A stretch of 64,000 bases of DNA from Oceanipulchritudo coccoides. GTDB taxonomy: Bacteria; Verrucomicrobiota; Verrucomicrobiia; Opitutales; Oceanipulchritudinaceae. Position numbers and translations under genes: made by a program. The stretch covers positions 1-64,000 of the forward strand of contig NZ_JAAGNX010000003.1 of the NCBI RefSeq assembly GCF_010500615.1, written 5' to 3'. Positions 6,452 through 55,554 of the stretch are shown piece after piece. The notes below the pieces were generated by a model. It made no database searches. It saw only the letters and a program-made list of their open reading frames with translations, and was not told the DNA's origin. Each line of letters starts with the position of its first letter. Within the stretch, counting starts at the first letter, position 1.

Positions 6452-8547
6452 TTAAGCACCAGCGCCTTCGTCTTCAATTGTTTCCATGCTGTTTACTGAT
6501 CCTTGGTCTGCTTCAAGCCGAGATCAGCGCTTTTGGCCAAGGATTGCCCGAACGCTTCATTTATGCGGACTCCGTGAGCACAACCGGTGGTCAATTCAAC
6601 GTCAACTACCCGCCGGAAAACCTGATCAACAACGGGTTCACCACTGCGGCAGATATTATAGACACCTCCGTGAGTTATATTTCATCCGGGCAAAACTACG
6701 CGACTGCCTCAGGGACGCTATCCGGATTCAACCTGGTCTTCGACTTTGCCAGCGAGGCCGAGATCGATGGTATGCATGTCTGGAATTATCAATTTCGCAA
6801 CGGGGACAACGGCTCCACATCACCCAACGCCGGCTTGAAGGATTGTACCCTGTCCTTTTTCTCCGGTACGGGAGGCAGCGGGACCCAGATTGGTGAGCCG
6901 ATTGACTTGTCTTTGGCTGCTGCAATCTGGGGAACGGAAAATCCGGCACAAACCATCGCCTTTCCCACGACGGTCACGGGCGTGCGATCGGTTGTCATGC
7001 GGGTTAATTCAAACCATGGTTCGGGATCCTTCAGCGGGTTGAATGAGCTGGCGTTTAATGGATCAGTGGACCGACCCGGCATCGATACGTTCATGGCTGA
7101 TGTGCCTTTTGCCCAGATGCCGGAAACGCCCACCTTGAGTTGGTCGGTCAGTGGCAATGTGACATCGCTCGAAATTTCTCCGGATATCGGTAATGTGCTC
7201 TACCTGACCGAGGGCGGTTCTGGCAGCATCGCCGTCGCCCCAATCGGGGAGCAGACCTACACCTTGACGCTAAATGACACGATTACTTCCAGTGTTTCGG
7301 TGATCGGCCTGCCACCCAGGGAAAAACTCCACATCTACTTGTTGATAGGCCAATCGAACATGCAGGGAGCAGGGGCGCCCTATGATCCCTCACTGGACGC
7401 ACCTGATCCGCGGGTTCTTAAATTTGGCAGCCGCAACGGATTGGAGAGCGTCTGGGTAAAGGGTGGCCATCCGCTGACGGCCTTGACCACATCATCTTCG
7501 GGCGCGATCGGAATGGGAGTCGAGTTCGGCAAGACCCTGCTTGCGGCGCAGTCCGACCCGGAAATTGTCATTGGCCTGATAAACCATGCGATCGGATCAT
7601 CTGCAATACAGTGGTGGGCACCCGGTGTCATCGACAACAAACAGGTCAACCCGCTCACAGGATTGAATTATTACCTCTACGACGAAGCTGTCCAGAGGGT
7701 GACCGCCGCAACTCAATATGGTATTCTGAAAGGCGTTCTCTGGCACCAGGGTGAATACAACAGCAACAACAACACGAATCCCGATCCAGATCCTGAAGGC
7801 TACGCAGCGCGTCTCCAGACACTGGTGACTAATTTGCGGGAATCCTTCAGCAATCCCTCCCTGCCCTTTATCTGCGGTAAGTTCGTTCCTGCGAGCTGGG
7901 TGGACGAAGGGGGCACAACTGTCTTTTTTACCGGCTTGCCCAACCGCGCCATCGTGGAGGCAGCCCTTGAGGATCTCCCCAACCAGCTGAGCAACACCTT
8001 TTGTGTCGACAACGTTGGACTGCGCGGCCGCCCTGACCAGAAAATCCATTTTGATGCCCATTCGCAACGGTTGCTCGGGCAACGCTACGCCGCTGCCATC
8101 CTTGACCTGCAATCCGATCCCTACCGTCTCTGGTTGGGTGGTTTCCTTTCCCCTGCCGAACTCGCCAATCCCCAACTTGCCTCAGCGGAGGCAGACCTGG
8201 ACAGGGATGGCCTCCTAAACTACCTCGAGTTCGCCTTCCTCACAGACCCAACCCGCAGCGAGGAAATCAACCCGCTCTCCTTCCAACTGGCTGATATTCC
8301 CGACGAAGGCCTCTTCCCCACCCTTGTCTACCGCCAGCGGTTTGATAAAGACGCACCCAATTATCAGGTTAATGTCTCGAACGATCTCCTGAACTGGCGT
8401 AGCAATCTGGATGAACCGGTCACCGTGGAATTCGCTCCATCCGTGGACAACCAGGATGGCACCTTTCGTGTCTCAGTGCGTTCACTCGCCCCCGTCGATC
8501 AATCCGCCCCAGGCCTGTTTCTTCAATTGCGTATTGAGCCCAGGTAG
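6448..8547 (+). CDS. Secreted SASA-domain carbohydrate esterase
   Basis: The start at 6448 (overlapping the gdh stop as ATGA) is chosen because it begins a signal peptide (MIKHQRL followed by a hydrophobic core ending near AFGQG). The 699-residue product has an N-terminal jelly-roll-like region (about 30-210) and an Ig-like stretch. The SGNH/SASA catalytic domain from about residue 295 carries GQSNMQG, with the nucleophile serine, and GVLWHQGE. This family removes acetyl groups from sialic acid or xylan-type sugars. The tail has an EF-hand-like DLDRDGLLNYLEF motif and a small beta module also seen in neighbouring secreted enzymes. Substrate is unknown. Coupling to glutamate dehydrogenase is odd and may be coincidental. 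Confidence 0.85.
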   Translation: MIKHQRLRLQLFPCCLLILGLLQAEISAFGQGLPERFIYADSVSTTGGQFNVNYPPENLINNGFTTAADIIDTSVSYISSGQNYATASGTLSGFNLVFDFASEAEIDGMHVWNYQFRNGDNGSTSPNAGLKDCTLSFFSGTGGSGTQIGEPIDLSLAAAIWGTENPAQTIAFPTTVTGVRSVVMRVNSNHGSGSFSGLNELAFNGSVDRPGIDTFMADVPFAQMPETPTLSWSVSGNVTSLEISPDIGNVLYLTEGGSGSIAVAPIGEQTYTLTLNDTITSSVSVIGLPPREKLHIYLLIGQSNMQGAGAPYDPSLDAPDPRVLKFGSRNGLESVWVKGGHPLTALTTSSSGAIGMGVEFGKTLLAAQSDPEIVIGLINHAIGSSAIQWWAPGVIDNKQVNPLTGLNYYLYDEAVQRVTAATQYGILKGVLWHQGEYNSNNNTNPDPDPEGYAARLQTLVTNLRESFSNPSLPFICGKFVPASWVDEGGTTVFFTGLPNRAIVEAALEDLPNQLSNTFCVDNVGLRGRPDQKIHFDAHSQRLLGQRYAAAILDLQSDPYRLWLGGFLSPAELANPQLASAEADLDRDGLLNYLEFAFLTDPTRSEEINPLSFQLADIPDEGLFPTLVYRQRFDKDAPNYQVNVSNDLLNWRSNLDEPVTVEFAPSVDNQDGTFRVSVRSLAPVDQSAPGLFLQLRIEPR

Positions 8548-8561
8548 AGTCAAATTATCGC

Positions 8562-10163
8562 ATGCAATTGCTTCTGAGCAAACGCGCCCTGTCCCCAACC
8601 GGATCTATCTACCTCAAGATGGCGGCATTTACCATTGTGGGGATGAGGTTTTGTACCGCTGATGCTATTGGACAAGATCCGAACAATACGCTCGACTCCC
8701 TGGAGCTGAGGGAGTTTAGCACAGCGGGTTCGTTCCAGCTGAATTTCGATGAGCGCATGGACCTGAATCAGGATGAGCAGATTCTTGAGCTCATGTATTC
8801 GGAGAACCTGAAGGACTGGACAAAGGTGGACCTTAACCGTTTGCGTTCCGGAGAATTCGATATCCTTCGATCCGCCACTGAAGCCAGAGCCGATGCTCAC
8901 GGGGTGATCATGGAACGCTCGTATTTGATCTCAAAAGCCACCTACACGGACGGCTTTTTTCAACTCCACTTGAGTCCCCTTAATCAAAAGGTTTCCTATG
9001 AGTTGATCCGTTTGGACGAGCAACGTTTTCCGGGTGTCGTACAGTCCTGGGACAACATCGGAATGGACAACCAGGAGAATGTGTATTTTGGATTCACTAC
9101 AGAACTGAGTTGGAAAATCGAAGATATGTCGCTCTTCCGCTACAACCAGAATGCCGGCACTTACGATTTTCTGGGGACCTACATCACCGCGTTGCAAGAG
9201 GCGGACAACTATCTGCTCGGTGAGTCAGTACCGAAGGGACACACCTACATGCCCTTCATCAACGGCAAGCTCTACATGGGCTCACAGGGGTTCCACGATT
9301 TCAAGGAGGAACTGTATGAACCGGGCAACAGCCTGAACGATATGCGAGGCTCGCATATTTTCGGCTGGGACGTACAAAACGAAACACTCGAGGATCTCAG
9401 CAAGGACTATCCGGGTGGGGTCGCTACCGTCAACGAAGGCATTGTCGCGCTTTCCCCAATCCCCTACGGCGACCACCTCTTTGGGTACTCACATCCCCTC
9501 GGCAATATTGTTTTCCTGAATCACACAACGGGGGCCATCGACAAGATTGTACCCGGCATTCCATGGTCGCTGGGCAATCCCATCAGTCGCGAAATTGTGG
9601 CAAGTCCCAATGGCAACGTTTACATTTACCGGGGCACCGAATCGCCCGATCAGCGCGACCTTTCCTTCAACGTCTACCGGTACAACATTGCCTCTGATCA
9701 ATTGGCCATGCTCGATTTTCAATGCACCGGAGGGTTCTGGAGCGGACAAACCGTTTCGAGAGATCAAACTGAAATCTACATCGTGACCGCCCAAGGTGAG
9801 CTCTACCATTTGGACACAACAACGGAGTCGTGGGAACATATGGGACAGATGCTTCCTCAGGAACTTCTCAATCAGGGCGCCTACATCCGCAACATTTCCT
9901 GCATCTCCCTGGACCAGTCTGAGGAGAATATTTACGGGATCATTTCACGCGGGGAGAACGGCGCCCAAAGCGGGGACTTAATTGAGTTCAATCTGGCGAC
10001 AAGGACCTCCCGGATCATTGCTAACTTCGGAGGTGGCCTTTATACCGGCAACAACACCCGCGACTCCAAAGGGAATATCTACTTCAACCGCTTTGGTGAT
10101 ACCAACAGATGGCGCAAGGATTGCGGCTTGCTGAAGATCCACATCAAAAGCGAGTTTGAATAA
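8562..10163 (+). CDS. Secreted beta-propeller-like protein of unknown function
   Basis: I do not recognise a named family. The 533-residue product starts with a basic stretch and a hydrophobic segment. A second ATG at 8619 (MAAFTIVGMRF) would give a more typical signal peptide and may be the real start. Residues ~50-90 contain a YSENLKDWTKV element like the small C-terminal modules of nearby secreted enzymes. The rest is a series of repeated strands with W, Y and G-rich turns (MGSQGFHDF, FGYSHPLGN, NVYIYRG), which suggests a 6-7 bladed propeller. It follows the SASA esterase by 14 bp and is probably in the same transcript, so a role in glycan binding or processing is possible but unproven. 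Confidence 0.6.
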   Translation: MQLLLSKRALSPTGSIYLKMAAFTIVGMRFCTADAIGQDPNNTLDSLELREFSTAGSFQLNFDERMDLNQDEQILELMYSENLKDWTKVDLNRLRSGEFDILRSATEARADAHGVIMERSYLISKATYTDGFFQLHLSPLNQKVSYELIRLDEQRFPGVVQSWDNIGMDNQENVYFGFTTELSWKIEDMSLFRYNQNAGTYDFLGTYITALQEADNYLLGESVPKGHTYMPFINGKLYMGSQGFHDFKEELYEPGNSLNDMRGSHIFGWDVQNETLEDLSKDYPGGVATVNEGIVALSPIPYGDHLFGYSHPLGNIVFLNHTTGAIDKIVPGIPWSLGNPISREIVASPNGNVYIYRGTESPDQRDLSFNVYRYNIASDQLAMLDFQCTGGFWSGQTVSRDQTEIYIVTAQGELYHLDTTTESWEHMGQMLPQELLNQGAYIRNISCISLDQSEENIYGIISRGENGAQSGDLIEFNLATRTSRIIANFGGGLYTGNNTRDSKGNIYFNRFGDTNRWRKDCGLLKIHIKSEFE

Positions 10164-10213
10164 ACCTCGTTTCCAAGGGTTGCGCTCGAGCAAATATTGG
10201 GAATTATTGCCTC

Positions 10214-11737
10214 ATGGCAGAATTGAAAAAACAGGAAACAAAACCCGAATCAAAGAGCGAATACGAGGCCCCAAAGGGTCAGTCAGCCCAGCTTTCCATA
10301 AGCTGCGCCGGGGAATCCATGGCCTACAAGGCCGAGTCCAAATGGATTGTCCTCAGAAAGGCCGAGAAGCCTACAGCGGAAGTGTTCTGCACGACCTACA
10401 CCCGCGAAGGGGAAAACGACCGACCCGTCACTTTCGTCTTTAATGGTGGTCCGGGTGCCTCCTCGGTTTACCTCCATATGGGAGCCTTGGGGCCACGCCG
10501 GGTAGACCTTTCGGAGACCGGTCTGCCAAAGGCATCTCCCCACAAGCTGGCCGACAATGAGGAGACGTGGCTGACCTTCACGGATCTGGTCTTTGTGGAT
10601 CCGGTAGGGACTGGCTTAAGCCGGATGATCGAGAAAGACACGTCAAAAGAGGATTCGAAACAAGCATCCAAGGAGGGCGAATCCCAAAAGAAGCCATCTG
10701 AATACTGGAAAATGAAGCGCGACCTCGAATCGATCGGGGAGTTTGTCCGCACATGGCTTTCGCAGCATCACCGCTGGGAAAGTCCTGTCTTCATCGCGGG
10801 TGAAAGTTACGGAGGCTACCGGGTCGGCAAGTTGGCGAAAGTCCTGCAAAAGGATTACGGGGTCGGCCTGGCCGGAGCCATTATGATTTCCCCGGCGCTT
10901 GAGTTCAGTTTATTGGACGCCACCGATTACAATGTCCTGCCCTACGTCGATACTTTTCCGACCATGGCCGCCGCGGCGTTTGTCCATGGAAAATCAAGGA
11001 AAGCCAAAAAGCAGGAGTCCATGGATGATTTCATCCAACGGGCGCGCGCATTTGCCCTGAATGAATTGTTGCCCGTCCTTGCCTCAGGTGAGATGGCGTC
11101 AGAAAGCAAACGCACGCAAGTGTTCAACAGCGCCGCTGACTTTATCGGAATGCCACGGCCTGTTGTGCTGAGGAAGAACGGCCGGATCAGTATTACCTAC
11201 TTCGTGAAAAACCTCCTGCGCGAGGATGGCAAAACCCTCGGCCTGTACGATGCCTCGGTCGCCGTTTCCGATCCCTTCCAGGACCGTGATGAACTGGATT
11301 CGCCCGACCCCACCCTGCACATTCTCGAACGCGTCTTCGCCTCGGCCATCAACACCCAGCTTCGTCGCGAAATCGGCCTGGTAACCGACCGCGATTACGA
11401 GCTCCTTAGCCACGAAGTGAATACGTCGTGGAAAAACGATGAACAGACGCATTCCCTGCAAAGCCAGTTTGGGGCAGTTGACGATTTGCGCTACGGGATG
11501 AGCCTTAACGAACATATGCAGGTATTCCTCACTCACGGATTGTTTGACCTAGTCACGGCCTTTACCTCCTCCGACCGGTTACTCGCCCTGATGAAGCTCA
11601 CTCCTGAGCAAAAGGAAAGGCTGACCGTGCATCACTACCCCGGCGGACATATGTTCTACACGTGGAAAGCCAGCCGTGAAGCATTCACGAGGGACATCAA
11701 GGCATTCTATCGCCGGGCCGGTGAGCTTGCTGACTGA
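10214..11737 (+). CDS. S10 family serine carboxypeptidase-like peptidase
   Basis: The 507-residue protein is an alpha/beta hydrolase-fold peptidase of family S10. FNGGPGASS near residues 76-84 forms the oxyanion hole, GESYGG carries the nucleophile Ser198, HGLFDLVT the catalytic Asp445, and PGGHMFY the catalytic His479. All three catalytic positions are intact. Unlike many members it has no visible signal peptide: the N-terminus is a charged lysine/glutamate-rich tail, so it may act in the cytoplasm unless the start is misjudged. A lysine/glutamate/serine-rich insertion lies around residues 138-160. The gene is 50 bp downstream of the propeller protein on the same strand. Confidence 0.88.
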   Translation: MAELKKQETKPESKSEYEAPKGQSAQLSISCAGESMAYKAESKWIVLRKAEKPTAEVFCTTYTREGENDRPVTFVFNGGPGASSVYLHMGALGPRRVDLSETGLPKASPHKLADNEETWLTFTDLVFVDPVGTGLSRMIEKDTSKEDSKQASKEGESQKKPSEYWKMKRDLESIGEFVRTWLSQHHRWESPVFIAGESYGGYRVGKLAKVLQKDYGVGLAGAIMISPALEFSLLDATDYNVLPYVDTFPTMAAAAFVHGKSRKAKKQESMDDFIQRARAFALNELLPVLASGEMASESKRTQVFNSAADFIGMPRPVVLRKNGRISITYFVKNLLREDGKTLGLYDASVAVSDPFQDRDELDSPDPTLHILERVFASAINTQLRREIGLVTDRDYELLSHEVNTSWKNDEQTHSLQSQFGAVDDLRYGMSLNEHMQVFLTHGLFDLVTAFTSSDRLLALMKLTPEQKERLTVHHYPGGHMFYTWKASREAFTRDIKAFYRRAGELAD

Positions 11738-11775
11738 GAAGAATAAGCCCGGCTGGTACCTGAGCGGTCCTTCCG

Positions 11776-12618
11776 GTGAACCCCATTGATGTTGTGGACT
11801 TGAGTGCAATCTTTCCTGCGGAAGACTTTCGCCTGAAAATGCGGTTTGAGCGCGGCGAGCCGGCGCAATTCTATAAGCCCAGTGCCCAGGCGAATCGTGT
11901 TCTTGCAGAACGCAAACACTGGCTCGAAAATACGGCAGAGGCCTGTACAGCCATCACAGATGAGGGCGCACCGCTTTTTGAGGAATTGCTGGAGCTCGCG
12001 GCGAAATGGAAAGCATTGCCATCCGGGAGCGACATTGCCTCTGTTCTTCGTCTTCCACCTCTAGAACAATGCCGCTGGCTCTGTGAACGCTGGGAGACCG
12101 ACTTTCTTCTCTTGAAGCCCGGGGCAGATGGGCTCTTTCGCCTCCATGGCGGCGGGCTTTGTTTCCCCTCCCACTGGGATTTGCGGTCCAAGATGGGTCA
12201 CACCGTCGCCGAGATTCACGAACCCGTCCCCGGACTGAACGCCACGCTGGGACGATCAATCGACGGCTTTCTGGCAAAGATCCGTCCGGGCATTTCGTGG
12301 GAGCGCCATAACTGGGGGCTCAGCCGAAGTCCTGAACTGAATCAGCACCCGTCACGCAAGCTGCCACGCCTCGACGATAAGGTAACGCTGGATGAAATCT
12401 GGTGGCGACTTGAAGATCAGTCGCTTGTCGCCCTTCCTAGATCCGGCGGCATTCTCTTTGGTATCCGTGTCACCGTTCATCCACTACGCGAGGTCCGGAA
12501 TCACTCCACCGCCTGTGAGGGCCTACTCCAGGCACTCGGGACCATGCCGGAAGAGATGGTAATCTACAAGGGAATGGGCCGAGCAAGAAAGCGGATCAGC
12601 GAATTATTGCGGGAATAG
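11776..12618 (+). CDS. DUF3445 haem-dependent oxidative N-demethylase-like protein
   Basis: This 280-residue protein has the DUF3445 core: FPSHWDLRSKMG followed by IHEPVPG near residues 135-157, then ERHNWGLSRS. Characterised members (HODM) bind haem in a PAS-like fold and oxidatively demethylate N-methylated amines. The substrate here is unknown. Translation appears to start at a GTG (11776) with a weak ribosome binding site. The gene follows the S10 peptidase by 38 bp in the same direction and is probably co-transcribed. Proteobacterial relatives often work with separate reductase subunits, none of which is seen nearby. Confidence 0.8.
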   Translation: MNPIDVVDLSAIFPAEDFRLKMRFERGEPAQFYKPSAQANRVLAERKHWLENTAEACTAITDEGAPLFEELLELAAKWKALPSGSDIASVLRLPPLEQCRWLCERWETDFLLLKPGADGLFRLHGGGLCFPSHWDLRSKMGHTVAEIHEPVPGLNATLGRSIDGFLAKIRPGISWERHNWGLSRSPELNQHPSRKLPRLDDKVTLDEIWWRLEDQSLVALPRSGGILFGIRVTVHPLREVRNHSTACEGLLQALGTMPEEMVIYKGMGRARKRISELLRE

Positions 12619-12732
12619 CGAAGCGCTATCACATAATTTTGAATCATGCGTTTTTTCCCATTCGGGTGGAAGTTTTGAGAAAGGCAGCTACCTTTCCAAA
12701 CATATACGAATTTCGCCCTCATTACACTTTCC

Positions 12733-13002
12733 ATGTCCAATAAAAAAACAGACTTAACCGAAAAGGAGATCGACACAATTGTCAGGTTGGCCTGGCACGA
12801 TCGAACAACCTTCGAGGCGATTCATGAGCGTACTGGATTGAGAGAACCCGAGGTCATTAAGGTCATGCGCCGGGCCCTCAAACCAGGGAGCTTCCGGCTC
12901 TGGCGCAAGCGCGTCAGTGGACGTTTGACCAAGCATCGCATGCCTTTTAAGCACCGCGTCAAACGAATCAGAAGCCTTAATGTTGCAGATTATGAATTCT
13001 GA
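12733..13002 (+). CDS. Small DUF2805/TIGR03643 family protein
   Basis: An 89-residue basic protein. The pattern LTEKEIDTIVRLAWHDRTTFE, then EPEVIKVMRR, then KPGSFRLWRKRV matches the conserved small family TIGR03643 (DUF2805). The N-terminal half looks like a helix-turn-helix, and the family has no established function. It stands alone, 114 bp after the demethylase-like gene. Confidence 0.75.
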   Translation: MSNKKTDLTEKEIDTIVRLAWHDRTTFEAIHERTGLREPEVIKVMRRALKPGSFRLWRKRVSGRLTKHRMPFKHRVKRIRSLNVADYEF

Positions 13003-13155
13003 TCGAGTTTTATAATCGACCTCCCGGTGTGGGTCCCCGCTTCAGTTGGTCGTTGCTGGTAGACCATCTGGGTCGGATCTTCAATCGTTTCATTATCGAC
13101 ATATCTTCGCTTTACTGATATAAGCTCCCCCGAACTGTTATTGGAGGGACTAACA

Positions 13156-15549
13156 ATGAGGAATTGGGGAATTTTCTTTGTGGTGCTGACGGCACCCTGT
13201 GTCTGGAATTCGGGGTTTGGGGAAGCTCAATTACTCCATATTAAAATGCCTGAGGACAGTGTGCGATCTTGCGTGCAAGCCGGCATATCAGCCGACGGCA
13301 CGACTGTTGTGGGCAGGACGAGGGAGGGCTCAATTTGGGAGGCCTATAGATGGAATCCCAATAAGACGACTGAGCCATTCAAAATATTGACACCAAAAGC
13401 AGGAGAAACTTCGACCGGTGGGGTTGCTTATGACGTGAATGGGGATGGAAGCATCGTCGTCGGGGATGGAACTTGGGAGGGTGCTGAGTATTCCTATCCC
13501 AAGATCTGGATAAATGATGTCGCGATTGAGTTTGATGAATCATTTGGAGGACCTGCTTATGCGATTTCGGATAATGGCCAGGTCGTGGCCACGACTCTAG
13601 TTGTTCAATCTCCATATTATCAAAATTGGCAGATCCCATTTACCCATAGGTGGGAACTTCCAACAACATTTCCTCCTGGTTATAATCCAAAAGTGCAACC
13701 TTACTCAGACGACGTTGCCCTGATGCCGATGTACGAACCGCCGGAGTTCACGCCGGGCACCGAATATACAGGCAGTCGCCCATCGGGAATTTCCGGGGAC
13801 GGGAATGTGTTGGTTGGCACGTCTGATATTCATACAAGCAAGATCGCTGTCCGGTGGATCAATGATCCCACCTTTGGATGGAGCGTTCAGGAATTCGAAA
13901 AGTATGCCAAAAACAAAGGCACTTACGCAGTGGCCGCTTCCTACAATGGTGAAATCATCGTGGGAAATACTTCTTTCAATGTTGGCACGATAGATGATCC
14001 GGTCTGGGAAACACGCGGATTTGTCTGGCCTTCCAAAACCCGGAAAATTTTTGTTTGGGAATCGGATGATTCATGGGAACCCACTTCATATTCAACGGAA
14101 GCCTTTGGCGTAATTCAGATTGCCGCGGGGTCTGGTTTCACCGCGGGCCTTTTGGAAAGTGGTGAAGTCGTTATTGTGGGAAGCGATGACCCACTTCTTC
14201 AACCGCCAACGGGGCTTGCCAATGCAGTTGAAATTGATGTCGGCCATGCACACGTGATCGCGTTGACGGCAGACAAAACTATTGTTGCATGGGGACATAA
14301 TGATTTCGGGCAAACCGATGTTCCTGATGGTCTGGATACGGTTAAAGCAATCGCGGCTGGCCAGTATCATAACCTCGCGCTCAAGGAAGATGGGTCAGTC
14401 GTCGCCTGGGGAAAAAATGAGGATGGACAAACCGACGTTCCAGAAGGTCTTGCCCCAGTAAAGGACGTCGCCGCAGGATATGGACATAGTCTGGCTTTGC
14501 TGCAAGAGGAAGACCCCGAGGAGGGCATTCTTGTCGGATGGGGTTTGAATCTGGATGGACAAACTGAAGAACCGCTTAATCTGGGAAACCTGGTTGCGAT
14601 TGAGTCCGGTTATTATCATAATCTTTCGCTTGATGAATCAGGTGTGGTATTTGCGTGGGGAAGGAACAATTCGGGTCAGTGCGACTGGTGGTATGTCGAG
14701 GATCCCGCTGTCGACATTTCCGCAGGTTCCGAACACTCCATCGTTCTCTACGATGATGGAACGATTGTTATCCTCGATAATGGCAAGCAATCCTACAATG
14801 TTCCATATGAACTATCGTATGTCACAGATGTGGCTGCAGGCGATAAGCACTCAGCGGTTCTGGATTCCAATCTGGTGAAAATGCTTGATACCTTGCCCGT
14901 GGATCCCCCGGGATTACCCCATAATGCCACATATACCACTGATATTTCCGGAGATGGAAAAATCATTGTGGGGTACAGTATTCTAACCGGCAGCAACGGT
15001 GAATCTGTGGCTGTCTACTGGGACGAATCAGGATCTGTTCATCGGTTTGAAGAATTGTTGTCGGGTATTGATCACAGTGGTTGGGAGTTTCAAAGTATCG
15101 CTGCAGTGGATGATGATGGAGACTCGATGACAGGCTACGGTGAATACAACGGAAACAAGGTCCAAGGCTGGCATCTGATCGGTTCATTAACTCCACCCGA
15201 AGAGGGGGATAAGTTTATAGAAGATTCCGGCGCGGAAGATTTGGGCGACGGGTATCACAAAGTCAGCTGGTATGGGCTTTTGAAAAGGATGGAAAATTCA
15301 GTGCACTGGCACGTGGAACATGGCTGGCAATTTATCGGAAAGGGAAAAGCGGACGACCTGACAATTTACGATCACGGGCTCGGCTGCTGGTCTTGGACAA
15401 GTGAGAAGGATTATCCATATGTTTACCTCTACTGCCTGGATTCCGGGTGGACCTATTACAAGGAAGGGGGAACGCCCGGCGACCGGGAATATTACGATTT
15501 TGTCAAAGGTAAATGGATCCACGAAACCGAGTTGCTCGGCGGTAGCTGA
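13156..15549 (+). CDS. Secreted HAF-repeat protein with internal RCC1-like propeller
   Basis: The start at 13156 is chosen over an in-frame TTG at 13141 because GGAGGG (13143-13148) sits 7 nt before this ATG and a signal peptide follows (MRNWGIFFVVLTAP). The ~797-residue product begins with HAF-type repeats (GISADGTTVVG, VNGDGSIVVGD). An RCC1-like block of several ~50-residue units follows (about residues 325-580; AAGQYHNLALKEDGSVVAWG is typical). It then returns to HAF-like repeats (DISGDGKIIVGY). The last ~110 residues form a Trp/Tyr-rich tail (SWTSEKDYPYVYLY, GWTYYKEGG). No catalytic residues are visible. A surface or binding role is inferred. Confidence 0.7.
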   Translation: MRNWGIFFVVLTAPCVWNSGFGEAQLLHIKMPEDSVRSCVQAGISADGTTVVGRTREGSIWEAYRWNPNKTTEPFKILTPKAGETSTGGVAYDVNGDGSIVVGDGTWEGAEYSYPKIWINDVAIEFDESFGGPAYAISDNGQVVATTLVVQSPYYQNWQIPFTHRWELPTTFPPGYNPKVQPYSDDVALMPMYEPPEFTPGTEYTGSRPSGISGDGNVLVGTSDIHTSKIAVRWINDPTFGWSVQEFEKYAKNKGTYAVAASYNGEIIVGNTSFNVGTIDDPVWETRGFVWPSKTRKIFVWESDDSWEPTSYSTEAFGVIQIAAGSGFTAGLLESGEVVIVGSDDPLLQPPTGLANAVEIDVGHAHVIALTADKTIVAWGHNDFGQTDVPDGLDTVKAIAAGQYHNLALKEDGSVVAWGKNEDGQTDVPEGLAPVKDVAAGYGHSLALLQEEDPEEGILVGWGLNLDGQTEEPLNLGNLVAIESGYYHNLSLDESGVVFAWGRNNSGQCDWWYVEDPAVDISAGSEHSIVLYDDGTIVILDNGKQSYNVPYELSYVTDVAAGDKHSAVLDSNLVKMLDTLPVDPPGLPHNATYTTDISGDGKIIVGYSILTGSNGESVAVYWDESGSVHRFEELLSGIDHSGWEFQSIAAVDDDGDSMTGYGEYNGNKVQGWHLIGSLTPPEEGDKFIEDSGAEDLGDGYHKVSWYGLLKRMENSVHWHVEHGWQFIGKGKADDLTIYDHGLGCWSWTSEKDYPYVYLYCLDSGWTYYKEGGTPGDREYYDFVKGKWIHETELLGGS

Positions 15550-15689
15550 GAATTTGAATAAAGGGATAAATCATCGCCCGCTTTCGTGCCGTTTCCACGT
15601 AGAGTGAGCAAGTGAGCTGACCAGAGTCTGATCCTGTACGACACCAAACGATTGACTCGGAAAGTTTATTTCTTTGTGTTGAGCGGTTC

Positions 15690-51034: not shown

Positions 51035-53731
51035 ATGCCCCAAAATTTGATTAATTCGCTCACAAACACATGGACGAATCTTCTTCCAGACGCCAAAATA
51101 GACCGGCGTAGCCATTTCTTTGAATCTGGCGGCGATTCACTCACTGCGACCGCGATGAGCCTTGAGGTTGAGCGGGATACCGGATGTGCCATTCCAGTTG
51201 GGCAGATCTACCTCACTCCAATACTGGAGGACTTTGCCGCAGCTGTTTCAAATTTTGATGCGGATGACCGGGCCCCTCTCTATATACCTCTCAAACCGGA
51301 GGGAACGGGCCGTCCGCTATTTGGGATTGCTCCCGCAATGGGTGGGGTTTTCCATTTCCGGGAGCTGGCCGAAGCACTTTCCGAAAACACGCCCTTCCAT
51401 GTCATTGAACCACGCGTTTCCGCATCGGGGGCACACACCTACTCCTCCATCCGGGACTTGGCTACCTGTGCCCTGTCGGTGGTTCGCAACAAGCAACCCC
51501 AGGGGCCATATCGGTTTGCGGGTTTTTCCTTTGGCGGGCCGCTCGCATGGGAAATGGCCCGCATCCTTGTCGAAACAGGTGAACGAGTGGATTGCCTGAT
51601 GCTTCTCGATAGTTCAAGCCGGAATGGATACGGGCTACCTCATGGACAACAGGGCTTCCTGAAGCTCATCTCGCACAATTGGCAATTCCTCTCCAGGTGT
51701 CGTGAAGTCCGCAAGCTATACTCTGAACCATTTCGGTTCAGCCGGTGGGTGCCATTGATCCAACAAAAACTGAAAGACAACCTGCCAGCTGTAAAAAGAA
51801 AACCTCAGAGTGATTCCTCCATCGATAAGAAGCCGGTGGCCCCGGGGGCAAAGGAAATGAAGGTCGAATCGCAGGAGAAACTTCGAGACGGGTTTGATCC
51901 CGGCACTTATCCGGGGATTGTCCACCTTTTCCGCGCTGAAGAGCAATTAACCCTGCACCGGGAACTGGACTTTGATCTGGGCTGGACCTCGCACCTCCAA
52001 AACAAGGGGCTCGTTGTTCAAACGGTTCCGGGGGACCATTTTTCCCTCCTCAAACCGCCAAACAGCCAGGTTCTCGCAGACAAGATACAGGCAGTTCTGG
52101 ACATTGCTGACGAAAACCTTGCCACCGAAGTAAACGAGGAGGTCAGGCAAGGCAATGCCGCTTCACCGCTGCCCCTCGATGAGCCTGTGGCAGGGGAATC
52201 CTATATCGAACGCTTTCTCCAAGTCGTCCGCGCCTATCCCGAACGTGTTGCTTTGCGTGATGGCGGGACCCGGCTGACTTTTGCACAACTTCATGCAAAG
52301 GCAGCAAAGGTCGCTTCCTTTCTCCTGGAAAAGGATCCAGACGGTGAAGGTCCGGTGCTCCTGCATTTCCAAACAAGTTGGCAGTTCATCTGCGCTCTCT
52401 ACGGAGTCTTGCTCGCCGGACGCTACTATGTCCCGGTCGATACCGAGTTTCCTGATTTGCGTATCCAAAAGATTGTTACATTATCGGGAGCAACGGCAGC
52501 CATTACCCTCTCTCCCGACAGTCTGCATATTGATAGTCCCGGGAGCATGAAAATCTATTCATTTGATGAGGCGTCACAATTCGCAGGAGGCAACTCACCC
52601 CCACTTCCCGTGGAAGTTTCTCCAGAAGCTCCTGCAGTGCTCCTTTTCACATCCGGCTCAACCGGCGTCCCGAAAGGAGCAGTTCTCTCCCGAAAAATGC
52701 TTCTACATGTGGCGTGGCGCAGGGGAACTCGTGCCGAATACACCGCTGCAGACCGGTACGGGATATTCTATATCAGCGCGTTCATGGGAGGAGTCATGGC
52801 TATCCATTCCCCACTTCTTTATGGAATCACCCTATCCATATACAATATTCGACAGCGTGGCTTGTCCGAGTTGCCCCAGTGGATGTGCGATGAGCGCATC
52901 ACCATCATGCACATGATCACCTCCGTCATGCGACGTTTTCTCGGTCTATGGGACGGAGATCCACCCCTTCCGGATCTTCGCCTTCTGATTCCTGGCGGTG
53001 AGCGAGCCCGTTCCGGCGATATCGAACTTTGGAAGCGCACCTGCGCTGAAAAAGTCAAGTTCGCGGCCTGCCTCGGGTCCACCGAATGCGGAACGATCAC
53101 CATGAATTGCCTCTCCAAATGTTATGAACACGGGAAGGGTCCCATTCCTGTCGGAAAGCCTTTCAAGTCATTGAATGCACGCATTCTACGGGCTGACGGG
53201 TCAGAAGCGGAAACTCTCGAGGAAGGACAGCTTGTCGTGGAAAGTGACTACATTTTCCGAGGTTATCTGAACGCCCCTGAATTGAACCAGTCTGTCCTCT
53301 CCTTCAGGAAAGATGGAAAGGCCCTGTACAAGACCGGCGACTATGGTTTCATCGATACAGATGGAGTGTTCCATAATGCGGGTCGACGCGATTCACGGGT
53401 CAAAGTAAACGGTAACCTTGTTGAACTGGCGGAGATTGAATCGGTTCTCATGAACTCCGGCCTGGTCGATGAAGTGGCTGTGGTCCATCGGCCCCTTCGC
53501 GCGGAAGATTCCAATTTCCAACTTGTGGGGTTTTACCGGTCGCGCCAAACCGATCAGCTTGAGACCCGTCTGGGGGCGCATATTCTCGAGCGGCTTCCGC
53601 GGATCATGCTTCCCGCACGGTGGGTGCCCCTCACCGTTTTTCCCGAGACTTCAACCGGCAAGACCGATCGTCGGGCCCTTGCCGAAATGGAACTGCCCAG
53701 CCCAAAAAAACATGAAGGCGATTGCCGCTAA
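51035..53731 (+). CDS. Carrier protein-thioesterase-adenylation (NRPS-like) protein
   Basis: An 898-residue cytoplasmic protein with an unusual domain order. Residues ~1-75: acyl/peptidyl carrier, FFESGGDSL with Ser35 as the phosphopantetheine site. Residues ~90-355: type I thioesterase with nucleophile Ser165 in GFSFGG and His335 in GDHFSLL. A linker contains a charged stretch (about 245-285). Residues ~385-890: AMP-binding/adenylation domain with LLFTSGSTGVPKG (A3), TGDYGFIDTDG and GRRDSRVKVNG (A7-A8), and a final STGKTDRR lysine motif. No condensation domain is present. It should activate a carboxylic or amino acid, load it on the carrier and release or hand it over. The ATP-grasp gene overlaps its end by 20 bp. 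Confidence 0.9.
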   Translation: MPQNLINSLTNTWTNLLPDAKIDRRSHFFESGGDSLTATAMSLEVERDTGCAIPVGQIYLTPILEDFAAAVSNFDADDRAPLYIPLKPEGTGRPLFGIAPAMGGVFHFRELAEALSENTPFHVIEPRVSASGAHTYSSIRDLATCALSVVRNKQPQGPYRFAGFSFGGPLAWEMARILVETGERVDCLMLLDSSSRNGYGLPHGQQGFLKLISHNWQFLSRCREVRKLYSEPFRFSRWVPLIQQKLKDNLPAVKRKPQSDSSIDKKPVAPGAKEMKVESQEKLRDGFDPGTYPGIVHLFRAEEQLTLHRELDFDLGWTSHLQNKGLVVQTVPGDHFSLLKPPNSQVLADKIQAVLDIADENLATEVNEEVRQGNAASPLPLDEPVAGESYIERFLQVVRAYPERVALRDGGTRLTFAQLHAKAAKVASFLLEKDPDGEGPVLLHFQTSWQFICALYGVLLAGRYYVPVDTEFPDLRIQKIVTLSGATAAITLSPDSLHIDSPGSMKIYSFDEASQFAGGNSPPLPVEVSPEAPAVLLFTSGSTGVPKGAVLSRKMLLHVAWRRGTRAEYTAADRYGIFYISAFMGGVMAIHSPLLYGITLSIYNIRQRGLSELPQWMCDERITIMHMITSVMRRFLGLWDGDPPLPDLRLLIPGGERARSGDIELWKRTCAEKVKFAACLGSTECGTITMNCLSKCYEHGKGPIPVGKPFKSLNARILRADGSEAETLEEGQLVVESDYIFRGYLNAPELNQSVLSFRKDGKALYKTGDYGFIDTDGVFHNAGRRDSRVKVNGNLVELAEIESVLMNSGLVDEVAVVHRPLRAEDSNFQLVGFYRSRQTDQLETRLGAHILERLPRIMLPARWVPLTVFPETSTGKTDRRALAEMELPSPKKHEGDCR

Positions 53732-54740
53732 GGTTTCAGAGTTCATCACCCTTGCCCGGGACGGCAGCAGACATCATCAGAGATTGTTTCTGGTTATCCT
53801 GTTTGAGATTATCTGGCTCCGTTGTCGCTACAGGCTCATGCTGAAGGAAATTCGTTTATACGGATTGCTGGCGCGGGATCCGGGTCCCCTTTCCCTCCAC
53901 AAGGATTTTTCTGCTCGGAAAACAATTGCCTGGATGAACCGGGTCAACCCGCCAGAACACCGCTCATTGGTGGACATAAAGCCTCGTTTTTATGCGCGCT
54001 GCCGCGAGCTGGGCATTTGTGTTCCTGAGATATATGCAACCGGGCAACCGGATCCCGACTTGCTATCGCGACTGCCCAACCGCTTTTTTGCCAAGCCGGC
54101 CTATGGAGCCGGTGGGGATGGGGCGTCAGCCTTCGTGCGGGATGGAACTCACTTCCATTCTTGGGATGGCCGAAAATTCGGGGACAATGAACTACTTGGC
54201 CACTTAAAGGAACTTGCCCGGGGACGAGAGCTGATTTTCCAGCAATGGATCCAGACGCATCCCAAGCTGACTGTACTTTCCGAGACGGCACTTATCACCT
54301 GTAGAATCGTGACATGGTGGCCGAATGCTCATGCAATTGAGCCCGATATCCTTCTCGCCTACCTGCGTATTCCCGCCAAAAACACCATTGTTGATAACAC
54401 AGGTTATGCTGAGAATGGTCAGGAAATGCTCGAACTGGATACGAAGACCGGGATGCCCCAAGCCACGTGGACGGTCCACTCAAGCGGATTCGGGATTGTT
54501 GGCTCGGACCATGTCTGTGGCGAAAGGAAAATTCCTCTCAAGGCATTGAACCTTCCCGACTGGGGGGCCACCTTGGAACTGGTGACCAACCTAGCACGGA
54601 CCTTCAAAAACCTTTCGACGCTCGGATGGGATATTGGTATGAGCGAGAATGGCCCGATTGCCATTGAAGGAAATACTGCCTGGGGCACCCCCCTGTATCC
54701 GTCAGGTCTTCATGCAATTGCAAAGGCCATGAGATCCTGA
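53712..54740 (+). CDS. Sugar-transfer-associated ATP-grasp ligase
   Basis: The start at 53712 (MKAIAAKVSEF, ~342 residues) is chosen because the open frame further upstream lies inside the previous gene. The features fit the ATP-grasp family found beside sugar-transfer genes: FYARCRELGICVPEIY, NRFFAKPAYGAGGDG (ATP-binding lysine and glycine loop), a ligand-binding CRIVTWWPN and the terminal acidic GWDIGMSENGPIAIEGNTAWG with Mg ligands Glu/Asn. It would form an amide or ester-type bond through an acyl-phosphate. Overlap with the adenylation gene and closeness to a GT2 gene suggest attachment of an activated acyl group to a sugar or lipid-linked molecule. That is inference. Confidence 0.8.
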   Translation: MKAIAAKVSEFITLARDGSRHHQRLFLVILFEIIWLRCRYRLMLKEIRLYGLLARDPGPLSLHKDFSARKTIAWMNRVNPPEHRSLVDIKPRFYARCRELGICVPEIYATGQPDPDLLSRLPNRFFAKPAYGAGGDGASAFVRDGTHFHSWDGRKFGDNELLGHLKELARGRELIFQQWIQTHPKLTVLSETALITCRIVTWWPNAHAIEPDILLAYLRIPAKNTIVDNTGYAENGQEMLELDTKTGMPQATWTVHSSGFGIVGSDHVCGERKIPLKALNLPDWGATLELVTNLARTFKNLSTLGWDIGMSENGPIAIEGNTAWGTPLYPSGLHAIAKAMRS

Positions 54741-54768
54741 TTGCCTTAACCTTGAGCAGGCTCTTAGC

Positions 54769-55554
54769 ATGCCGAAAATGACGCCTCATCCCGCCAATCC
54801 AGATTTGCCCCCTTTGAATCTACTCAGCGTGGTTCTCCCCGCCCGGGATGAATCGGGTTGCATAGAGGCAACACTGCGTCACCTCCACTTGGATCTGAGC
54901 CTGCAAAAAATCCCGCACGAGATTATTCCCGTGGACGATGGATCCACGGACACGACTTGGGAAATCCTGCAGGGACTCAGCAATGAGATCCCTGAGATCA
55001 AACCTGTACAGAACAAGGGGGATAACGGATTCGGAAGGGCTATCCGATTAGGACTTGAACGGATGGCTGGAGATGCAGCCGTCATCATGATGGCGGATGA
55101 ATCCGACGATGTCCGCGATGTGGCGATCTACTGGAACAAATTGAACGAGGGATACGATTGCGTATTTGGTTCACGCTTCATCAAGGGCGGTGGGACAATT
55201 GATTATCCGATGGTCAAATATTTCTTCAACCGCTTGGCCAACTTCTTTATCCGGCACCTTTTCCACATCCGCCTGAATGATACCACCAATGCGTTCAAGG
55301 CCTACCGCAGGAAAGTCATCGAGGGAATTCAACCGCTGATCTCACCGCATTTCAACCTTACCGTGGAAATTCCCTTGAAGGCGATTGTCCGTGGATACAC
55401 CTGGACAGTCATTCCCATTACCTGGCGCAATCGGCGCACTGGCGTCGCCAAATTGAAAATCAAGGAGATGGGAAGCCGCTACTTCTTCATCATCATGTAT
55501 GTCTGGCTTGAAAAGTATTTCAGCCGCGGGGATTACCTCAAAAAAGGCAATTAA
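54769..55554 (+). CDS. GT2 family glycosyltransferase, DPM1-like
   Basis: A 261-residue GT-A glycosyltransferase. LSVVLPARDESGCIEATL opens the fold, PVDDGSTDTTWE binds the nucleotide, MMADESDD occupies the DxD position, and SRFIKGGGTIDYP then NDTTNAFKAYRRKVI resemble dolichol/polyprenyl-phosphate mannose or glucose synthases. No TM helices of the large GtrB type are obvious, although hydrophobic patches near NRLANFFIRHLF may touch the membrane. It probably transfers a sugar from a nucleotide donor to a polyprenyl phosphate. It follows the ATP-grasp gene by 28 bp; GCAGG lies 9 nt before the ATG. Confidence 0.88.
   Translation: MPKMTPHPANPDLPPLNLLSVVLPARDESGCIEATLRHLHLDLSLQKIPHEIIPVDDGSTDTTWEILQGLSNEIPEIKPVQNKGDNGFGRAIRLGLERMAGDAAVIMMADESDDVRDVAIYWNKLNEGYDCVFGSRFIKGGGTIDYPMVKYFFNRLANFFIRHLFHIRLNDTTNAFKAYRRKVIEGIQPLISPHFNLTVEIPLKAIVRGYTWTVIPITWRNRRTGVAKLKIKEMGSRYFFIIMYVWLEKYFSRGDYLKKGN

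Follow-up and report, generated by a model that had tools for sequence, protein, structure and literature searches.

Genes and domains at the locus

The window, a 64,000-nucleotide stretch of the Oceanipulchritudo coccoides genome, contains three tightly spaced genes on the same strand (P0001, P0002 and P0003, Table 1).

Table 1. Positions of the three genes and of the P0001 domains in the window (T, carrier; TE, thioesterase; A, adenylation)
Feature	Position	Strand	Evidence
P0001, T-TE-A protein, 898 aa	51035..53731	+	Pfam; same architecture in G545; alignment
P0001 carrier (PP-binding) domain, FFESGGDSL, Ser35 for phosphopantetheine	51086..51244	+	Pfam, alignment
P0001 type I thioesterase domain, GFSFGG Ser165, Asp192, His335	51311..52129	+	Pfam, PDB relatives, alignment
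P0001 adenylation domain, pocket code MGMHIGCTIK, A3/A8/A10 motifs intact	52223..53704	+	Pfam, alignment
P0002, ATP-grasp protein (PF14397), 342 aa	53712..54740	+	Pfam, start by alignment with G077 and G226 relatives
P0003, DPM1-like GT2 without membrane span, 261 aa	54769..55554	+	Pfam, PDB, 77-78% orthologues

In P0001 the Pfam profiles PP-binding (residues 18-70, 31 bits), Thioesterase (residues 93-196, 78 bits), AMP-binding (residues 397-745, 179 bits) and AMP-binding_C (residues 800-876, 25 bits) follow each other in this order, no condensation domain was detected by Pfam, and Ser35, Ser165, Asp192 and His335 align with the equivalent residues of a homologue. Pfam and the alignment thus confirm the order carrier (Ser35), thioesterase (Ser165/His335), adenylation domain without a condensation domain, which had been described in the first-pass annotation. 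The PDB relatives of the thioesterase domain include the EntF and NocB thioesterases; a charged stretch at approximately residues 255-280 is weakly conserved. Single-sequence structure predictions gave pLDDT values of 34 and 36, too low for use. It was considered whether the domain order could come from a chimeric assembly, and this was ruled out because the reading frame is unbroken on a contig of 840 kb and the same order recurs in the G545 protein described below.

P0002 scored 92.3 bits with the ATPgrasp_ST profile (PF14397), whose curated cut-off is 31.4 bits, and has kept the ATP-grasp residues (AKPAYGAGG, R, D and E-G-N), but it belongs to a distant subfamily. Mechanical reading from the ATG at 53469 yields a protein of 423 residues and an overlap of 263 bp with P0001. 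Because the two closest relatives (in G077 and G226, about 357 amino acids long) align from around Met82 of this longer reading, translation probably starts at 53712. The overlap of the two genes noted in the first-pass annotation is real, but it is likely to be 20 bp long rather than 263 bp. All relatives found were distant (27-29%), and they occurred in 3 of 273 genomes of the order. The genome has a second PF14397 ATP-grasp gene (G000:C3:330372-331184; L010, L061), in which an in-frame TAG lies within the profile match.

P0003 begins, as first annotated, 28 bp after the stop codon of P0002. It matches PF00535, and its nearest solved relative is the dolichol-phosphate mannose synthase 5mlz (E 8e-21). 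The GT-A domain, the VDDGS sequence and the acidic motif are shared with the DPM1-like polyprenyl-phosphate hexose synthases, but the match to 5mlz covers the catalytic part only and no membrane span was predicted in P0003.

Occurrence of the T-TE-A order

No orthologue of P0001 was detected in 54 near relatives at 1e-60, and a search of genome contigs returned only a 22% match in the A domain. A wider search with P0001 as query covered two overlapping genome sets, 388 from the phylum and 384 from the class, and identified one other stand-alone full-length T-TE-A protein, encoded in G545, whose family belongs to the same class but is distant. This protein is 34% identical to P0001 over residues 7-887 and shares its domain order, whereas the other proteins of 830-930 residues examined were of the A-T-TE type. 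The architecture, a search for which in other Verrucomicrobiota had been suggested in the first-pass annotation, does occur there as a stand-alone protein in this one case, but none of the near relatives searched has it. Plasmid tblastn matches covering more than 80% of P0001 were also considered as candidate T-TE-A proteins, and all seven checked proved to be ordinary A-T-TE synthetase ends. One locus found in G482 (L055, approximately 7118-15597) has three consecutive genes, each encoding an A-T-TE protein.

The order was also seen inside three large NRPS proteins (L097, L098 and L099, in G821, G695 and G753, respectively), which come from three different families of the class and in which an internal T-TE is directly followed by an A domain. 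Rare as it is, the T-TE-A order is not unique. The existence of these internal stretches could suggest that P0001 is a remnant of an NRPS assembly line, without a function of its own. We consider this very improbable: the internal stretches have GYCFGG with a cysteine nucleophile, have lost the TE aspartate, have kept Asp235 of the A domain and have A domains that fall in a different clade of the tree, whereas in P0001 no catalytic residue is lost and an intact homologue (34% identity) exists. On the same residues and the tree, in which the P0001 and G545 A domains stand apart from those of the internal segments, we rejected a megasynthase-internal T-TE-A segment as the origin of P0001.

Relationship to A-T-TE synthetases

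P0001 and the G545 protein were sisters both in the tree of the A domains (support 100/98) and in that of the T-TE parts (100/100). When either of the two was left out, the remaining one stayed in the same strongly supported clade of nine rows, in which A-T-TE enzymes without Asp235 are numerous (G331, G325, G307) and which also holds proteins of C-A-T-TE size (C, condensation) and one A-only protein. The A domain of P0001 falls within the A-T-TE clade; the branches are long and make its exact sister among the A-T-TE proteins unsure. Like P0001, the A-T-TE NRPS-like (non-reducing) synthetases are of similar size, have a single copy each of the A, T and TE domains, with catalytic residues, and no C domain, and include A-domain kin that have lost Asp235. 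The order of the domains is different, hence P0001 is a permuted relative of these enzymes and no strict member of the group. A cyclic permutation of this known type is the best interpretation of its architecture. The simplest reading of the trees would be a single rearrangement from A-T-TE to T-TE-A, which preceded either the split of the two lineages or a transfer between them.

It is interesting to compare P0001 with ObiF, the obafluorin synthetase (C-A-PCP-TE-MLP-A(Ar)), which also has an A domain after the TE, one that takes an acid without alpha-amino group (PMC6668435). Unlike P0001, ObiF has in addition a C domain, a first A domain and an MbtH-like domain, and the carrier loaded by its last A domain is a separate protein (PMC6668435).

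The adenylation pocket

Pocket positions were mapped from GrsA numbering with LgrA as the alignment reference. The pocket code of the G545 protein is MGNHVGNSIK, and the position of Asp235 is occupied by Met in this protein as well as in P0001. Asp235 contacts the alpha-amino group in A domains, and in A domains specific for alpha-keto and alpha-hydroxy acids it is replaced by hydrophobic or small residues, with the exception of McyG, which accepts Phe despite having Val at this position (PMC11253843). The replacement by Met in both proteins therefore makes a usual alpha-amino acid unlikely as their substrate, and the A domain of P0001 is likely to use a non-amino acid. The proposal of the first-pass annotation that the protein activates and loads one acid survives, with domains and active sites intact and no condensation domain present. 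The changed pocket would also fit the non-peptide product envisaged there.

Two other pathways in which such enzymes take part were weighed at this point. The TE domains of A-T-TE quinone/furanone synthetases join two alpha-keto acids (PMC9047271), and P0001, with the same three kinds of domain and a lost Asp235, might likewise dimerize an aromatic alpha-keto acid, the product of which would be tailored by the neighbouring enzymes. We regard this as unlikely, since the known ones have the A-T-TE order and, in the papers found, come from fungi, and a DPM1-like GT2 would be an odd tailoring enzyme.

The genes of shinorine synthesis include both an ATP-grasp ligase and an NRPS-like enzyme, and the same pairing of enzyme kinds at our locus could point to a mycosporine-like pathway, in which amino acids are attached to a cyclohexenone core by such a ligase together with an NRPS-like enzyme of the A-T-TE type. 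We give this explanation hardly any credence: loading of serine normally needs a pocket for the alpha-amino group, which does not agree with Met at the Asp235 position of P0001, the genome has only one gene of the dehydroquinate synthase family (PF01761) and no extra ring-forming enzyme of that family, and P0002 matched no model of such a ligase.

Conservation of the three-gene linkage

The first-pass annotation proposed that the three genes constitute one system, and named their joint conservation in relatives as the test. This was not borne out, and the result speaks against the linkage only: P0001 is absent from the 54 relatives, the three genes were linked in one genome only, and the GT2 stands in another cassette. 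No ATP-grasp or GT2 gene was found beside the T-TE-A gene of G545, after which the next gene is, as judged from its sequence, sulfatase-like; nor did the A-T-TE relatives inspected have an ATP-grasp or GT2 match or an evident shared context. The two genes flanking the operon are located in different places in relatives. We found no anomaly of base composition that would mark recent acquisition of the operon, and no promoter or terminator support above chance.

Orthologues of P0003 (77-78% identity) are present in four members of the family (G002, G007, G008 and G015), never together with a pair of the P0001/P0002 type. The GT2 orthologues of G008 and G015 have, directly downstream, a related membrane protein that lacks a Pfam match and is predicted to span the membrane 6-7 times; in G002 the two are separated by another membrane protein, and in G007 a membrane protein of the other sort is found 3' of the GT2. 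An epimerase gene precedes the orthologue in G007, and in G008 it is one gene further off. The multi-span membrane proteins look like GT-C-type enzymes which would use a polyprenyl-phosphate sugar. No homologue of the shared membrane protein was detected in the source genome at 1e-8, and P0003 is here outside the usual cassette of its family. The cassettes of a DPM1-like GT2 and a multi-span membrane protein (L146, L147, L148 and L149) possibly encode undescribed GT-C-type transferases.

The best-annotated close relative of P0002 is outside sugar loci: the G077 relative had no sugar gene among the neighbours tested. Relative L116 is on a 5-kb contig without annotation. The nearest relatives found are in no evident sugar loci, and a literature search on the name of the PF14397 family gave no match; at our locus a single GT2 adjoins P0002.

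Could the three proteins nevertheless form one pathway for acyl-sugar synthesis or surface-glycan decoration? Besides the tight co-directional spacing of the genes, loci of other genomes can be cited in its favour. A Shinella locus encodes, in this order, an acyl carrier protein, an AMP-binding protein, a type III PLP enzyme (PLP decarboxylase-like) and a PF14397 ATP-grasp protein, among the flippase, glycosyltransferase and nucleotide-sugar dehydrogenase genes of a polysaccharide locus, and a similar locus is present in Rhizobium; therefore, carrier, adenylation and PF14397 ATP-grasp proteins do co-occur in a sugar context. In G287 an AMP-binding protein is encoded two genes before a PF14397 gene, beside a capsule-synthesis protein. 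However, the A domain of the Shinella locus has kept Asp235 and is, by alignment and tree, not close to that of P0001, and the single-genome linkage, the different cassette of the GT2 and the location of the close P0002 relative outside sugar loci all argue against a common pathway, which we consider possible but doubtful. The sugar or polyprenyl-linked glycan proposed in the first-pass annotation as acceptor has behind it only the adjacency in one genome and the PF14397 family name, and "acyl-sugar system" is a guess from a single locus.

The Shinella genes lie on a plasmid (L018, 5653-12711); they and a polysaccharide locus of the same kind (L017) may represent a glycan-modifying cassette.

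Proposed function and significance

We slightly favour the view, from domain content and alignments, that P0001 is a single-module NRPS-like enzyme which loads and releases an acid, and that it is, with its T-TE-A order, a cyclically permuted form of the widespread A-T-TE synthetases. The C-terminal A domain would adenylate a carboxylic acid other than the usual alpha-amino acid (an alpha-keto, alpha-hydroxy or other acid), which would then be loaded onto Ser35 of the N-terminal carrier domain of the same or of a partner chain, and the TE would either pass it to a nucleophile or release it. P0002 probably forms one more bond, an amide or an ester, with the product, and P0003 probably makes a polyprenyl-phosphate hexose. 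Should the three proteins belong to a common pathway, its simplest product would be a small acylated glycolipid or a glycan decoration. A more far-reaching idea, that T-TE-A proteins are a separate functional class of permuted enzymes, in which a non-amino acid is transferred by the TE onto a glycan or a lipid and the ATP-grasp ligase finishes a new route to acylated glycolipids, seems rather improbable to us.

The order of the domains in such synthetases is usually taken as fixed. The intact T-TE-A proteins in two distant families show that a permuted order does persist, and P0001 lends itself as a compact natural system for asking whether carrier loading by an A domain works when the carrier comes first and a thioesterase lies in between. 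If the acceptor is a sugar, a carrier-dependent way of glycan decoration would be added.
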